Positions 6,172-37,571 of a stretch of DNA of 64,000 nucleotides are shown one piece after another. The position numbers were made by a program, and so were the translations under genes. This stretch comes from Thermodesulfovibrionales bacterium. GTDB taxonomy: Bacteria; Nitrospirota; Thermodesulfovibrionia; Thermodesulfovibrionales; Dissulfurispiraceae. Each line of letters begins with the position of its first letter. The stretch's first letter is position 1. Where the stretch lies: the NCBI GenBank assembly GCA_030017995.1, contig JASEGS010000006.1, forward strand, positions 1-64,000, in the 5' to 3' direction. The notes under the pieces were generated by a model. That model had not been told where the DNA came from. It searched no databases and was given only the letters and a program-made list of their open reading frames with translations.

Positions 6172-7530
6172 ATGCATTCCGCCAATTATTATGATGCCGT
6201 TAACTATTTGTACGGCCTTCAGAAATATGGCATCAAGCTTGGCCTAAAAAAAACCGAAGACATACTTTCGAAGATAGGGAATCCGCATAAAAACCTCCTG
6301 TCAGTGCATGTTGCAGGCACTAATGGGAAAGGCTCTGTGTCTGCTATGATAGCCTCAATTCTTATGGCTCAAGGCTTTAAGGTGGGATTGTTCACATCCC
6401 CGCACCTTGTGAGTTTTACCGAAAGGATAAGGATAAATAACAAACAGATTTCCGAATCAGAAGTGGTAAGCCTTACGAATGAAATTAGATTCGAAATTCG
6501 AAATTCGAAATTCGAAATTCCTGAACCGACCTTTTTTGAATTTGTGACAGCAATGGCATTCCTGTATTTTGTTAGGAATAAAATAGATTGGGCTGTAATA
6601 GAAACAGGGATGGGAGGCAGACTGGATGCAACTAATGTTATTACGCCTGCTGTTTCTGTTATAACCAGGATAGGCTATGACCATAAAGAGTTTCTTGGAG
6701 AGACGCTGTCAGACATCGCAAAGGAAAAGGCGGGAATAATTAAAAGAGGGATCCCTGTGGTTTCTGCGCAACAGGAGCAAAAAGCAGAAGATGTAATATT
6801 TACAAAGGCAAAGGAAGAAAACTCTCCCATTGTTGCATATGGAAAAGATTTTAAGGGCATTTTAAAATCTTCTGATATTAATGGAATTGGCTTTGATTAT
6901 CATGACCCTGAACTCATAACTCATGACTCAAAGCTTGAAAACCTCTTTGTGCCGCTGCCCGGTGAACACCAACTTTTCAATGCCTGCATAGCAATAAAGG
7001 CAGCAATGCTGGCGCTTATGCAAAATACGGAATACGAAATTCGGAATTTGAAATTGATACGGGAGGGGCTCGCCTCAACCAAATGGCATGGGCGTCTTGA
7101 GATAGTAAAGAATGAGCCGTTGATAATGATTGATGGCGCTCATAATCCAGAGGCAGCAAATGCGCTTTCAGACTTTATCAGAAAACATCTGGGCGATCGC
7201 AGGATAATTCTGATAATAGGAATCATGTCAGATAAGGATATTGACGGTATTTTGAGACCTCTCTTGTCACTTGCATCAGATGTGATATTCACTACGCCGG
7301 ATTATGGCAGGGCTGCCTCTCCGGAAAAGCTTTCAGAATATGCGGCATCTTTAGGGTATTGTTCAAAGGTTACAGGTTCGGTTAAAGAGGCAATCGATAC
7401 AGCGATTAAAATCAGCGATGAGTCAAGCCATTCACTGATTTTAATCACAGGCTCTTTCTATACAATTGGAGAGGCAATGGAAACGCTCGGGGAAAATGCA
7501 ATAATGGGTGATTTAAGGGAAACTGTATGA
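6172..7530 (+). CDS. folC: Folylpolyglutamate / dihydrofolate synthase
   Basis: FolC adds glutamate to (dihydro)folate. The ATP-binding loop HVAGTNGKGSVSAM lies at residues 46-59, followed by the Mur-ligase features FTSPHLVSFTERIRIN, ETGMGGRLDATN, YDHKEFLG, HGRLE and MIDGAHNPEA. The length of 452 aa is slightly above the usual 420-430. The excess coincides with peptide segments encoded by heptad repeats (6490-6520, and 7024-7058). The frame stays open through both, so the enzyme is probably intact. The stop overlaps the lptD start (ATGA). Confidence 0.95.
   Translation: MHSANYYDAVNYLYGLQKYGIKLGLKKTEDILSKIGNPHKNLLSVHVAGTNGKGSVSAMIASILMAQGFKVGLFTSPHLVSFTERIRINNKQISESEVVSLTNEIRFEIRNSKFEIPEPTFFEFVTAMAFLYFVRNKIDWAVIETGMGGRLDATNVITPAVSVITRIGYDHKEFLGETLSDIAKEKAGIIKRGIPVVSAQQEQKAEDVIFTKAKEENSPIVAYGKDFKGILKSSDINGIGFDYHDPELITHDSKLENLFVPLPGEHQLFNACIAIKAAMLALMQNTEYEIRNLKLIREGLASTKWHGRLEIVKNEPLIMIDGAHNPEAANALSDFIRKHLGDRRIILIIGIMSDKDIDGILRPLLSLASDVIFTTPDYGRAASPEKLSEYAASLGYCSKVTGSVKEAIDTAIKISDESSHSLILITGSFYTIGEAMETLGENAIMGDLRETV
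6490..6521. repeat. Heptad tandem repeat (TTCGAAA)4 inside folC
   Basis: Four exact copies of TTCGAAA plus TTCC. In frame this gives FEIRNSKFEI, a 7-residue peptide period (21 bases = 3 units) inserted after the TNEIR segment of FolC. Confidence 0.9.
6906..6930. repeat. Possible heptad repeat (nnnCTCA)3 inside folC
   Basis: The segment reads as three 7-bp units ending in CTCA (GAACTCA, TAACTCA, TGACTCA). It is weaker than the other arrays and could be chance. It encodes part of DPELITHDSKLENL. Confidence 0.4.
7024..7058. repeat. Degenerate heptad repeat (AATACGG-like)5 inside folC
   Basis: Five consecutive 7-bp units, AATACGG, AATACGA, AATTCGG, AATTTGA and AATTGAT, are in phase and in frame. 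They encode TEYEIRNLKLI within FolC. Confidence 0.75.
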
Positions 7531-9521
7531 ACATCAGAGCAGTAAAGCAACAGAGCAGTAGAGCAGTAGTTTTTATAAGGAAATTTTTTTATTTTATTTC
7601 GCTCTTCTGTTCTTCTGCTCTTCTGCTCTTTTGCTCTGATGTCTGTGCTGTCACCATCACCGCTGACCACCTTGAATACCTCCATGAAGAGGATAAATAT
7701 ACTGCCATTGGGAATGTAAGGATAGAAAAAGAAGATGCCCTCCTGAAAGCTGATAAAATCATCCTTTATAACAAGACATCAGACGCCGAGGCGACAGGCA
7801 ATGTCTCTTACAATGACAGTGAAACCTTGATAAATACAGACCGTGCTGAAATAAATCTTGAGACAAAAACAGGCAAACTCTATAATGCTGTCATACTGCT
7901 AAAAAAAAGCAACTCATGGATTAACGGGGAAAATATTCAGAAGCTTAGTGAAGACCATTATTACGCAGCAACAGCCACATTCACCACCTGTGACTCTGAG
8001 GCATCTATCCCACCTGATTGGTGCTTTAAAGGAAAGGATGTTGATTTAATAATAGGAAAGAAACTTATAGCTAAGGATGTTACTTACAGGGTTAGAGGAG
8101 TCCCTGTGCTCTATTCCCCATACCTCTGGACACCTATAGAAACCGAGCGTGCAACCGGATTTCTGTTCCCTGTTATCGGCAGCAGCTCGAGAAAGGGATT
8201 TCGATTAAGCCCTGCCTTTTTCTGGAATATTGATGAAAACAGGGATGCAATCTTCTTCCTTGATTATTACAGCAAACGCGGCCTTGGAACAGGCATAGAA
8301 TACAGATATATAGACTTAGCCAATTATGGGAAATGGCAGGCCTTTCATATCAGAGATCAGGAGCTTAAAAAGGACTATTTTGAACTCAAGGTCACCCATA
8401 ACACACAAATAGGCGATATCAAAGGCTATCTGGATGTAAATTATATAAATCAGAAGGATTTTTATAAAGAGTATTCTGAGGAGACTAAAATAAATATCCA
8501 GCGGTTTTTGCAGTCCACAGGAGAGGTTTCAGCTCAGTTCACGAACTCAAGGCTCTATCTCCTTGGGCAATACTGGATAGACCTCAACGGTGAAAACTCA
8601 ATACTGCCTCAGAAATTGCCGGAGTTGGGCTATGTAATTAATCCTACAAGGATCGGGCCTTTTCTCTTTGCAATGAACTCAAGCATAGCCAATTTCTACA
8701 GAGACGAGGAAGCAAGAGGGCAGAGATTAGACATCAATCCTACGCTGTATCACTCATTTGGAGACGCAGTCCGGTTCTTTCAATCCGTTTCATTGCGTGA
8801 AACTGCTTATAATCTGCAAAACGGGGGGGATTATGGGTCTTCTCCGCATAGGGAGACATTTCAATACAGAGCAAGTGCATTAACACGATTTATAAAGAAA
8901 TATGACTCTTTCACACACATTATAGAACCGTCCCTTGAGTATAAGTTCATTCCAGAGACACGGTCACTGCCCCTCTTTGATTCAACCGAGCTCTTCAATA
9001 AAACTTCTCAATCGCAGTTTTCTTTATTAAATATTTTTTTATCCAAAGACTACCTTTTGTATGCGCGCCTGACACAGCCATATGATCTCAACGGAGACGA
9101 CAAATCATTGCTTCCAACTGCATTAGAGGCTTTCTTCAGAGGTCCGTTTATCCTCAGGTTTGACATGTCATATGACTCAAATAAGGGCAGGACAGAGACA
9201 GTTAATTCAGAAATAGGCTTTAAAATAACAGATAAAACAATTATTCGCGCCGGAGAGCGATACAGCAGACAAGACAATATATTGCTATCTGCAGCAGGAA
9301 TAGATTCAGCCCTAACTAAAAACTGGGCAATAAACGCAAGCATATGGTATGACCTTAAGGGAAACGGATTAAGGGAATCCGCTGTTCAAGCCACATATAC
9401 ACAGCAATGCTGGACAATTGTAGCCATGTTCAGAAGGAAACCATCTGATGGCGTGAATCCGCCTGACTATAGTTTTACATTTTTAATTGAATTAAAAGGT
9501 CTCGGTGCATTCAAGATATAA
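7527..9521 (+). CDS. lptD: LPS assembly outer-membrane protein LptD
   Basis: LptD is the outer-membrane barrel that with LptE inserts LPS into the outer leaflet. After an N-terminal signal peptide (cleavage likely after SDVCA), residues about 44-140 form the OstA/LptA-like jellyroll (TITADHLEYLHEEDKYTAIG and repeats of ADKIILYN type). The rest is a beta-barrel rich in alternating aromatic residues, with YSPYLWTPIETERATGFLFP typical of LptD. At 664 aa it is a bit short but complete. The hydrophobic core of the signal peptide ([10 protein letters not shown]) is encoded by an 8-bp tandem repeat. The gene overlaps folC by 4 bases and truB by 1 base. Confidence 0.93.
   Translation: MNIRAVKQQSSRAVVFIRKFFYFISLFCSSALLLFCSDVCAVTITADHLEYLHEEDKYTAIGNVRIEKEDALLKADKIILYNKTSDAEATGNVSYNDSETLINTDRAEINLETKTGKLYNAVILLKKSNSWINGENIQKLSEDHYYAATATFTTCDSEASIPPDWCFKGKDVDLIIGKKLIAKDVTYRVRGVPVLYSPYLWTPIETERATGFLFPVIGSSSRKGFRLSPAFFWNIDENRDAIFFLDYYSKRGLGTGIEYRYIDLANYGKWQAFHIRDQELKKDYFELKVTHNTQIGDIKGYLDVNYINQKDFYKEYSEETKINIQRFLQSTGEVSAQFTNSRLYLLGQYWIDLNGENSILPQKLPELGYVINPTRIGPFLFAMNSSIANFYRDEEARGQRLDINPTLYHSFGDAVRFFQSVSLRETAYNLQNGGDYGSSPHRETFQYRASALTRFIKKYDSFTHIIEPSLEYKFIPETRSLPLFDSTELFNKTSQSQFSLLNIFLSKDYLLYARLTQPYDLNGDDKSLLPTALEAFFRGPFILRFDMSYDSNKGRTETVNSEIGFKITDKTIIRAGERYSRQDNILLSAAGIDSALTKNWAINASIWYDLKGNGLRESAVQATYTQQCWTIVAMFRRKPSDGVNPPDYSFTFLIELKGLGAFKI
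7536..7650. repeat. Paired inverted octad repeat arrays at the lptD start
   Basis: The left arm 7536-7570 has four 8-bp units (AGAGCAGT, AAAGCAAC, AGAGCAGT, AGAGCAGT). The right arm 7611-7650 has five (GCTCTTCT, GTTCTTCT, GCTCTTCT, GCTCTTTT, GCTCTGAT). The arms are inverted complements around a 40-bp T-rich centre and could fold into a long imperfect hairpin 9 bases into the coding region. The right arm encodes the signal-peptide core of LptD. Confidence 0.85.
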
Positions 9522-10384
9522 TGAACATAATCATAAATCTCAATAAAAGCGCCGGAATTACATCCCATGATGCTGTGATCTCTGTAAAAAAACTATTCAA
9601 AGTAAGGAAGGCAGGGCACGCAGGCACACTTGATCCCATTGCCACAGGTATCCTTCTCATATGCCTGAACGAGGCTACAAAGGTTACAAAATATCTATCC
9701 GATCTTGACAAAGAATACATAATGACAGCAAAGCTCGGGGAAAGCACAGATACATATGACTCTGAGGGCGAGGCAATTAAAAGATTTGAGATTTCAGATT
9801 TAAGATTTCAGATAGAAGATATTGAAAAAATAATCCAGAGATTTGTTGGGGAGATTGAACAGATACCACCTATGTTTTCAGCAATTAAGGTATCAGGCAA
9901 ACCCCTTTATAAGCTCGCAAGAAAAGGCATTGAGGTGGAGAGAAAGCCGAGAAGGGTAACAATACATTCCATTGAGATCCTCAGATTTGAAAATCCTTTT
10001 TTAAAATTGAAGGTCTCCTGTTCAAAAGGCACATATATACGATCATTATGCAATGATATAGGAAATGCCCTCGGCGTTGGCGCTCACATAACAGAACTCA
10101 TACGCACAAAGGTTGGCAGTTTTGCACTTGAAAAGGCCGCTGCTATAAGCGAGTTGCCTCATAAAATTAGCGCTTTGCATCCCATTGATTCGGCTCTTGA
10201 ACATCTGCCAGAGATAATATTGCAAGGGGATTCCCTTAAAAGGGCGCAGCACGGCAATCCGATAAAGATGGCTTTAACAACGCCTTCACATTTTGTGAGA
10301 CTCAAATCTCCTGATGACAAACTTTTCGGTATCGGCAGACTCTCAAGAGGTTTTTTAAGAATAGAGCGTCTGTTGCTGATATAG
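9521..10384 (+). CDS. truB: tRNA pseudouridine-55 synthase
   Basis: TruB makes the universal pseudouridine 55 in the T-loop. The catalytic Asp38 sits in KAGHAGTLDPIATGIL. Other family blocks are DKEYIMTAKLGESTDTYD, QIPPMFSAIKVSGKPLYKLAR and CSKGTYIRSLCNDIG, with a C-terminal PUA-like tail. The length of 287 aa is normal. A heptad repeat (9782-9815) encodes an in-frame RFEISDLRFQI segment in the variable region after the SEGEA motif. The gene overlaps lptD by one base and ends 53 bases before the initiator tRNA. Confidence 0.95.
   Translation: MNIIINLNKSAGITSHDAVISVKKLFKVRKAGHAGTLDPIATGILLICLNEATKVTKYLSDLDKEYIMTAKLGESTDTYDSEGEAIKRFEISDLRFQIEDIEKIIQRFVGEIEQIPPMFSAIKVSGKPLYKLARKGIEVERKPRRVTIHSIEILRFENPFLKLKVSCSKGTYIRSLCNDIGNALGVGAHITELIRTKVGSFALEKAAAISELPHKISALHPIDSALEHLPEIILQGDSLKRAQHGNPIKMALTTPSHFVRLKSPDDKLFGIGRLSRGFLRIERLLLI
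9782..9815. repeat. Heptad repeat (AGATTTN)4 inside truB
   Basis: Units AGATTTG, AGATTTC, AGATTTA, AGATTTC followed by AGATAG lie in frame within truB and encode RFEISDLRFQI. Confidence 0.85.
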
Positions 10385-34964: not shown

Positions 34965-37571
34965 TTGCAGGAGAAATATAATCCGCAGGAGATTGAGTTG
35001 AAGTGGCAGAAATATTGGGCTGAGAGAAAGCTCCACAAGACAGAAGCGGACAATTCTAAAGAAAAATTCTACTGCCTCGAGATGTTCCCCTATCCCTCGG
35101 GAAAGATACACATGGGACATGTCCGCAATTACGCGATAGGCGACGTCATTGCTCGATACAAAAAGATGCGCGGCTTTAATGTGCTTCATCCGATGGGATG
35201 GGACGCATTCGGCCTTCCTGCCGAGAACGCCGCTATAAAGCACGACACTCATCCGGCCAAGTGGACTTATGAAAATATAGAGCACATGAAAATACAGCTC
35301 GACCGCATGGGACTGAGTTATGACTGGGAAAGGGAAGTTACTACTTGCAGTCCCGAATATTACAAATGGAACCAGTGGTTTTTCCTCAAGCTCTTTGAAA
35401 AAGGGCTCGCTTACAAAAAGTCGTCATTCGTGAACTGGTGTCCTTCGTGCGCTACGGTGCTCGCGAACGAGCAGGTTATCGAAGGCGCGTGCTGGAGGTG
35501 CGACAGCACGGTGATCCAGAAAGAGCTTGAGCAGTGGTTTTTTAAGATAACTGCTTACGCGGAAGAACTGCTTCAGGGATGCGATGAATTGAAAGGATGG
35601 CCCGAGCGTGTAGTTGCCATGCAGAAAAACTGGATAGGAAAGAGCGAAGGAGTAGAGGTTGATTTCCCGATTGAAGGCTCAAGCGAGAAATTTAAAATAT
35701 ACACGACAAGACCCGATACCATATTCGGCGTTACATATATGTGCATTGCGCCCGCGCATCCCCTCGCGGAAAGGCTTGTTCAGGACATGGCCGGCCTCGA
35801 TGCGATAAAGGCACAATACGGAAAAGAGGAAATCAAGGAAGGACTCTTCACAGGCCATTACGCGATAAATCCTCTGACAGATGAAAAGATACCCGTTTAT
35901 GTAGCCAACTTCGTTCTTATGGAATACGGCACAGGAGCCATTATGTCCGTCCCCGCGCATGACCAGAGAGACTTTGAATTCGCGCAGAAATATAACCTGC
36001 CGGTGAAGGTCGTAATAATTCCTGAAAGGAATACGGACTGCGGAATCGGGAGCGCTGAATTGAAAGAGGCTTATGAAGAGGAAGGAGTTCTCATAAATTC
36101 AGACAGATTCAGCGGACTCAAAAGCGGCGATGCGAAAAAAGATATAGCGAGATTCATATCGGATAAAGGATTAGGGAAAATAACCGTCAATTACAAACTG
36201 AGGGACTGGGGAATTTCGAGGCAGAGATACTGGGGCACGCCGATCCCAGTGATATACTGCGAAAAATGCGGCATAGTGCCTGTTCCCGAAAAAGACCTTC
36301 CAGTAATACTTCCAGAGGATGTGAAATTAAGCGGCGAAGGCGGCTCTCCATTATTGGAGTCCGAGAAATTTTTAAAGGTCAAGTGCCCGAAATGCAATGC
36401 GGACGCGCGGCGCGAGACCGACACAATGGATACCTTCGTTGACTCGTCATGGTATTTTATTGCCTATTGCATGAAAACAGAGCAGCAGAGCAGCAGAGCA
36501 GCAGAGCAGCAGGAGGAAGAAAAAAACAAGCCTTTTGACTTTAACTCATCACTCATCACTCATCACTCATCACTTAATTACTGGATGCCTGTTGACCAAT
36601 ACATAGGCGGAATCGAGCACGCAGTGCTTCATCTTTTATATTCGAGGTTTTTCACAAAAGCGTTGAGAGACCTCGGCGTCCTCAGTTCAAGAGAGCCGTT
36701 TCAGAATCTTCTTACGCAGGGGATGGTCTGCAAAGAGACATGGAAATGCCCGGAGCACGGCTGGCTTTTCCCGGAAGAGGTGAAAAATGGGAAGTGCATC
36801 CTTTGCGCTAATGAAGTTGAAAAAGGCCGCGTAGAAAAGATGTCTAAATCCAAAAAAAATGTGATCGATCCCGATGCCCTTATTAACAAATACGGCGCAG
36901 ACACCATAAGGCTCTTCTCGCTTTTTGCGGCCCCCCCTGAAAGGGACCTCGAATGGTCTGATAAAGGCGTTGAAGGCGCTTATAGATTTTTGAACAGGGT
37001 ATGGGGAATAGTTTATAAACATAAAGCAGAAGAGCAGAAGAGCAGAAGAGCAGAAGTAACTTCCGCACTTCCGAGCTTCCGCACTAATGCGCTTTTAAAG
37101 AAAACCCATCAGACAATAAAAAAAGTCACATCAGACATAGAAAAGGAATACCACTTCAACACCGCAATTGCCGCCCTCATGGAGCTGACAAACGAGATAT
37201 CAGACAATGCTCCGGGCAAAGAAACCGATTTCGCAATAAAGAGCCTGCTTTTGATGCTCGCTCCGTTTGCCCCTCATATAAGCGAGGAATTATGGGAGAT
37301 AACGGGGGAGGCGATGGGAGAAAAGAGAAGCATATTCGAGCATTCATGGCCGTTATGGGATGAAGACATGGCAAAGGAAGAGGAAATCGAACTTGTTGTG
37401 CAGATAAATGGCAAGCTTCGTGCTAAGATAACAGCGCCTGCCGGCATGTCCGACGATGAAGCTAAACAGAGGGCATTGCAGGAGCAGAAGGTAAAAGAGA
37501 CTCTCGATGGCAAAGAGATAAAGAAGGTCATTGTTGTGCAAGGCAAGCTGGTGAATATCGTTGCGGGGTAG
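34965..37571 (+). CDS. leuS: Leucyl-tRNA synthetase with repeat-encoded insertions
   Basis: The HIGH motif is [11 protein letters not shown] (about 42-52) and KMSKS is in [11 protein letters not shown]. The CP1 editing domain has TTRPDTIFG and [14 protein letters not shown], and [20 protein letters not shown] is also conserved. It starts with TTG at 34965, supported by CGGAGG 8 bases upstream. The 868-aa protein contains two low-complexity insertions encoded by tandem repeats: about residues 505-537 ([11 protein letters not shown] to SLITHHSSL) and 687-707 ([10 protein letters not shown] to SALPSF). Both keep the frame and fall in surface positions, so the enzyme is presumably active. Confidence 0.95.
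36478..36575. repeat. Octad and heptad repeat arrays inside leuS, first insertion
   Basis: Four exact CAGAGCAG octads (36478-36509) and four exact ACTCATC heptads (36544-36571) are separated by 34 bases. Together they encode a 30-odd-residue Gln/Ser-rich insertion in LeuRS just before the NYWMPVDQY motif. Confidence 0.92.
37027..37085. repeat. Paired octad arrays inside leuS, second insertion
   Basis: CAGAAGAG units (37027-37056) and then CTTCCGCA, CTTCCGAG, CTTCCGCA (37060-37083) resemble the inverted-arm layout seen at lptD. They encode [20 protein letters not shown] in frame at the junction to the anticodon-binding domain. Confidence 0.85.

Follow-up and report, generated by a model that had tools for sequence, protein, structure and literature searches.

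Signal peptides are quick to evolve, and where they come from usually goes unexplained. The start of lptD in the Thermodesulfovibrionales genome studied here, contained in a 64,000-nt stretch of one contig (hereafter the window), raises the question of whether the DNA encoding an export signal can be traced to a repeat. Cells that bear LPS normally cannot do without LptD, and the product of this gene carries both the LptD barrel and the LptD_N domains (Pfam). The ATG at 7527 overlaps the stop codon of folC (7528-7530), and the next in-frame ATG, GTG or TTG is codon 101; thus, the lptD start is regarded as secure on sequence grounds. The features that the argument needs are as follows.

7527..9521, + strand: lptD, 664 aa (Pfam LptD 3.7e-26, LptD_N 3e-07)
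7531..7642, + strand: copy of the dispersed hairpin element in lptD, codons 3-39 (inverted repeat, R1 match, MFE z -5.1)
7533..7569, + strand: left arm of AGAGCAGN units, purine-rich strand, encoding the charged n-region IRAVKQQSSRAV (TRF 7536-7569)
7570..7600, + strand: spacer TTTTTATAAGGAAATTTTTTTATTTTATTTC, 31 nt, AT-rich, homologous to the element core TAGTTTTTATTAAGGAATTTTTTT (alignments)
7601..7642, + strand: right arm of TCTGCTCT-type units, encoding the hydrophobic core (TRF 7601-7637)
7643..7655, + strand: c-region and putative signal peptidase I site VCA/VT (direct reading; cleavage site inferred; the slash marks the cut)
37031..37085, + strand: related octamer hairpin in frame in leuS (R1 on both strands, E 1e-05 and 1.4e-04; Pfam)

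Two arrays of period 8 were delimited by TRF, one on the left (7536-7569; unit AGAGCAGT, 4.2 copies, 76% match) and the other on the right (7601-7637; unit GCTCTTCT, 4.6 copies, 89% match). They lie within inverted arms of 39 nt each (7531-7569 and 7604-7642), which are 79% complementary and separated by 34 nt. Neither the array score (p < 0.005) nor the folding of the hairpin was matched in any of 200 dinucleotide shuffles (MFE of -56.7 kcal/mol vs -35.3 +/- 4.2 in the shuffles). The repeat arrays and the hairpin described by the first-pass annotation are thus real, albeit with imperfect units and with the extent corrected from 7536-7650 to the interval between the fifth base of the open reading frame (7531) and 7642. 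As also stated there, the right arm encodes a hydrophobic core of ten residues, and the left arm, assigned to codons 4-15, lies in codons 3-15.

We called signal peptides from hydropathy and context. The best 12-aa hydropathy of the LptD leader was 2.27 with the element and 0.74 after codons 3-39 were deleted; the hydrophobic core is gone once the repeat is removed, and the element therefore appears to supply the predicted n- and h-regions. From 7643 on, the sequence is free of repeats and enters the conserved start of mature LptD, ITADHLEY (anchor residue 44 at nt 7656). Altogether, nearly the whole n-region and h-region of the predicted signal peptide is the element, and the c-region and the mature start are ordinary. 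The hydropathy of this h-region is low compared with the relatives (83 of 93 score higher), which counts against the explanation that we favor.

The repeat at lptD is one copy of a dispersed palindromic element with the architecture (AGAGCAGN)n-TAGTTTTTATTAAGGAAT...-(NCTGCTCT)n, the arms being built of 8-nt units. Aligned copies run from the left arm through TAGTTTTTATTAAGGAAT and a T-rich core to the right arm, so that the similarity extends beyond the arms, and the core is common to the lptD copy and the leader of an Omp85 paralogue in the relative G046. A covariance model (R1; 85 positions) built from 24 elements, with the lptD copy left out, matched lptD at 7544-7637 with 70.1 bits and, E-values of this model being rough, an E of 5.3e-13 in the window and of 1.4e-11 genome-wide; this was the best match in the genome. 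The word AGAGCAGNAGAGCAG occurs 25 times in the same genome (1.70 Mb in 55 contigs, a draft) vs 0 times in the reversed control. It is abundant in some relatives, all represented by draft metagenome assemblies (116 occurrences in G030, in which the LptD leader itself matches approximately 20 places), and missing from most. The purine-rich arm came first in 73 of the 78 close pairs of arms from nine genomes and the pyrimidine-rich arm in 5 (sign test 7e-17, with sites treated as independent). Across the order the element is patchy: 21 of 150 genomes carry it, representing 12 of 77 genera; the nearest named relatives of this LptD are metagenome assemblies of Nitrospirota and Thermodesulfovibrionales. 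Against Rfam, nothing but generic long-hairpin microRNA models came up, with scores far under threshold, and no target-site duplication was recognized in the listed flanks or at the empty site in glycerate kinase described below. The homology to a dispersed element, spacer included, supports the earlier suggestion of a mobile or expanding repeat having taken the place of part of the export signal. We consider it highly probable that the predicted signal peptide of LptD is a domesticated copy of this palindromic element, in which inverted arrays of 8-nt units surround an AT-rich core.

The phenomenon extends beyond lptD, as the same element supplies other predicted signal peptides. Every distinct match in the own genome and most of those in G017 and G046 were read by eye, using the stretches around the repeats. 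The 16 loci of the own genome comprised five signal peptides (LptD, an Omp85 paralogue, an M16 peptidase, a TPR lipoprotein, and a SurA-like protein that scores under the curated Pfam cut-off), seven copies kept in frame within conserved genes (leuS, comEC, a cation ATPase twice, cbiD, a histidine phosphatase [His_Phos], and a DUF2229 protein; Pfam), and four intergenic or gene-end copies. If leaders make up approximately 2.3% of the genome, the probability of finding five of 16 loci in leaders is 2e-5, a figure that depends on assignments by eye and on orthologous copies that are not independent. Approximately eight further element leaders were found in G046 (Omp85, a SpoIID-like protein, an outer membrane efflux protein, TPR proteins, and two proteins without a Pfam match) and three in G017, some of which are orthologous to those of G046.

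Other repeats lie within genes of the window. leuS carries three separate in-frame insertions of octamer or heptamer repeats (36478-36512, 36544-36574, and 37031-37085). Heptamer arrays of the ATTCGAA, AATACGG and AGATTTC types are found within the conserved genes folC (6489-6520 and 7023-7055) and truB (9781-9820), where they are kept in frame and translated as RFEIRNSKFEI-like inserts. At a separate locus, L036:1334-1727 (+), the leader MKLRVKSLELGVKIKTLLLCCFAALLLFFSLQPSAFSA, followed by EKW, seemingly consists of three arrays, namely AGTTAAG heptamers, CTGCTCT octamers and TTCAGCC heptamers.

When the starts of lptD were compared across relatives, all of which lie outside the own genus, other repeat words or none were found at the equivalent place. 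Arrays of period 7 or 8 were present in 37 of 92 lptD genes (150 nt before the mature start), counts that kinship between the genomes makes non-independent; the controls gave 0 of 93 in each of three interior windows of lptD and 4 of 86 in a folC window. As for other genes, arrays occurred in 9 of 27 tolB leaders, including that of the own genome, and in 0 of 35 regions upstream of truB. The own tolB (L127) has a leader, LSVFCVLCSVFCLLYSV, made from TTCTGTG heptamers, a repeat word different from that of lptD. Most relatives build their lptD arrays from other unit words, such as AATAGGC, AAACAGT or AAAAGTG, and these arrays are analogues of the octamer element, not the same element. On a quick LptD tree with many open forks, the presence of an array changes at least 17 times and the unit word 32 times. 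The sisters L006 and L087 have unrelated leaders that differ in length between the conserved GAAACNGTATGA and TGGGCTACCACG, and their flanks are alike. The leader of the Omp85 paralogue is octamer-based in the own genome (G000), G017 and G046, and apparently made of other repeat words, as read from the peptides, in G005, G042, G043 and G002. Likewise, a loop of glycerate kinase (L338-L343) contains the element in G046 and other repeats in G005 and G001, and is empty in both G042 and G022. This loop is a hotspot for unrelated repeats across species, one of which is a GGGGGGATCGGGCCA array in G001.

Some of these observations are also expected from local replication slippage, in which short 7- or 8-mers that signal peptides already contained grow on the spot; no locus would donate sequence to another, and the region would simply be tolerant. 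The arrays are imperfect, their unit words vary between species, and the glycerate kinase loop has seen other repeats expand in other species; slippage may indeed be the origin of many of the heptamer cases. For the octamer element, however, copies at unrelated loci share the non-repetitive core TAGTTTTTATTAAGGAA and a fixed polarity of the arms, and R1 recognizes lptD at an E of 5e-13. Slippage alone cannot carry a core from one gene to another. We thus regard local slippage as an unlikely account of the lptD leader, albeit the strongest of the competing ones.

Slightly less probable still is that the hairpin regulates lptD translation as an RNA structure, masking the start codon until it is opened by ribosomes finishing folC. 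The overlap between the two genes and the position of the ATG at the foot of the strong stem fit this idea, and the first-pass annotation had proposed that the arms could fold over the start region. As a correction to that proposal, the main stem leaves out the Shine-Dalgarno-like AAGGG and has the ATG at its foot. Furthermore, the same element is found in coding interiors and intergenic sites, and folding of the array-bearing lptD regions of relatives is no more than moderate (mean z -1.5). Since a strong hairpin is limited to some of these regions (z < -3 in 7 of 37), the folding is probably a by-product. The strongest folding seen was that of L087, the lptD of G043, whose leader forms a stem of approximately 44 bp with AAGTGGG/TTCTTAC-type arms (z -11.9).

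The repeat might also act as a contingency switch, an out-of-frame 8-nt repeat toggling LptD on and off as the (CTCTT)n repeat in the leader-peptide coding region of Neisseria opa genes does in phase variation by slippage (PMC3960869). The likeness is that a short tandem repeat, with a unit that is not a multiple of 3, encodes the hydrophobic core of a leader. Unlike in opa, the octamers here are imperfect (76-89% match), which lowers slippage, come in inverted pairs, and are part of a dispersed element. The gene concerned is normally essential, and nearly all of the best lptD matches in the relatives searched lack internal stops (the exception being one TGA in G030). We regard a switch of this kind as very improbable.

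Signal peptides are rich in Leu and Phe, but chance low complexity of hydrophobic codons, or codon bias, is ruled out with near certainty by a period scan of the lptD leaders (36 at period 7, 3 at period 8, and one each at periods 6 and 9, against approximately 0.1 in shuffles), by the array-free bamA leaders of the same genomes (0 of 28), and by the DNA homology between the lptD segment and intergenic copies. Neither 7 nor 8 is divisible by 3, so amino-acid repetition cannot cause such arrays, and selection at the codon level does not explain them.

Returning to the domesticated element, its structure offers a reason for its suitability as a leader. Each arm reads as a near-identical periodic peptide in any frame because the unit length is not divisible by 3, and the purine-rich arm comes first on both strands because the element is palindromic. 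The purine-rich arm yields polar, mostly basic residues and the pyrimidine-rich arm yields Leu, Ala, Phe, Cys and Ser. Among the 13 copies checked, 12 gave the polar-to-hydrophobic reading in three or more of the six frames and eight in all six, most copies giving it in five or six; the stop-free frames per copy ranged from zero to four. A copy inserted after the start codon and ahead of the c-region, in a gene for an exported protein, would therefore provide an n-region and an h-region if its frame were open. At lptD, insertion or array expansion would have occurred in a tolerant segment of the signal peptide, selection would have retained the copies that still exported LptD, and the hairpin would be mainly a relic of the structure of the element. 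Both the mobility of the element and the export function of the leaders derived from it are what we infer from sequence.

Among known systems, REP/BIME sequences, which are associated with RAYT (Y1) transposases, are likewise short, palindromic and dispersed. Y1_Tnp genes, however, do not track the octamer element, and we rejected a Y1/RAYT transposase as its mover: G002 has 15 R1 matches (both strands counted) and no Y1_Tnp (a draft, 96% complete), and Y1_Tnp is present in many genomes that lack the element, with no correlation between the two. The element works like the Rickettsia palindromic elements (RPE), palindromes of approximately 100 nt found between and inside genes, and in frame in conserved proteins (PMC2229807, PMC2996958). 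It too is a dispersed palindrome of approximately 100-150 nt (112 nt in lptD) with genic and intergenic copies, some in frame in conserved genes; the likeness is one of these features. The differences are that the arms here are arrays of 8-nt units, that a large part of the genic copies are predicted signal peptides, and that the host belongs to Thermodesulfovibrionales. RU-2/YPAL and RU-1 (ERIC), small mobile sequences of enterobacteria (Delihas 2007), are among the closest known systems, and in Yersinia a MITE-like repeat has been reported to form part of a predicted leader (PMC2759123). The RU-2/YPAL case concerns mainly one poorly characterized exported protein, whereas several conserved envelope proteins, including LptD and Omp85, are concerned here in several species. 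The STRR and the TAACTGA/GGGAATC heptanucleotide repeats of cyanobacteria, Beggiatoaceae and Xanthomonas are similarly dispersed, patchy short tandem arrays with no known mover (PMC4679880, PMC4692102). STRRs consist of direct heptanucleotide units, and all of these repeats are described as lying mainly between genes; in contrast, the own lptD has an 8-nt unit with a core and inverted arms, and the octamer element is often in coding sequence, although many relatives have 7-nt units. In the openly searchable literature, we found no account of repeat-derived signal peptides in Nitrospirota and no report of such elements repeatedly serving as leaders of conserved envelope proteins.

One practical consequence is that gene starts in genomes bearing such repeats are easily mis-annotated. 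For the biology of these bacteria, the source DNA of a predicted export signal can be named, and a physical reason can be offered for why palindromes with units of 7 or 8 nt may make workable export signals in any frame. Export signals appear to have been repeatedly supplied or swapped by repeat DNA, here and in the relatives, and the event recurs in conserved proteins across a bacterial order. The system allows one to test directly if functional parts of proteins come from selfish or junk repeats. Whether the inverted-array elements are ready-made signal-peptide cassettes that have repeatedly replaced the leaders of essential envelope proteins in Thermodesulfovibrionales is, in our judgment, evenly balanced; if so, export signals in this order would turn over by the insertion of repeats instead of by point mutation.
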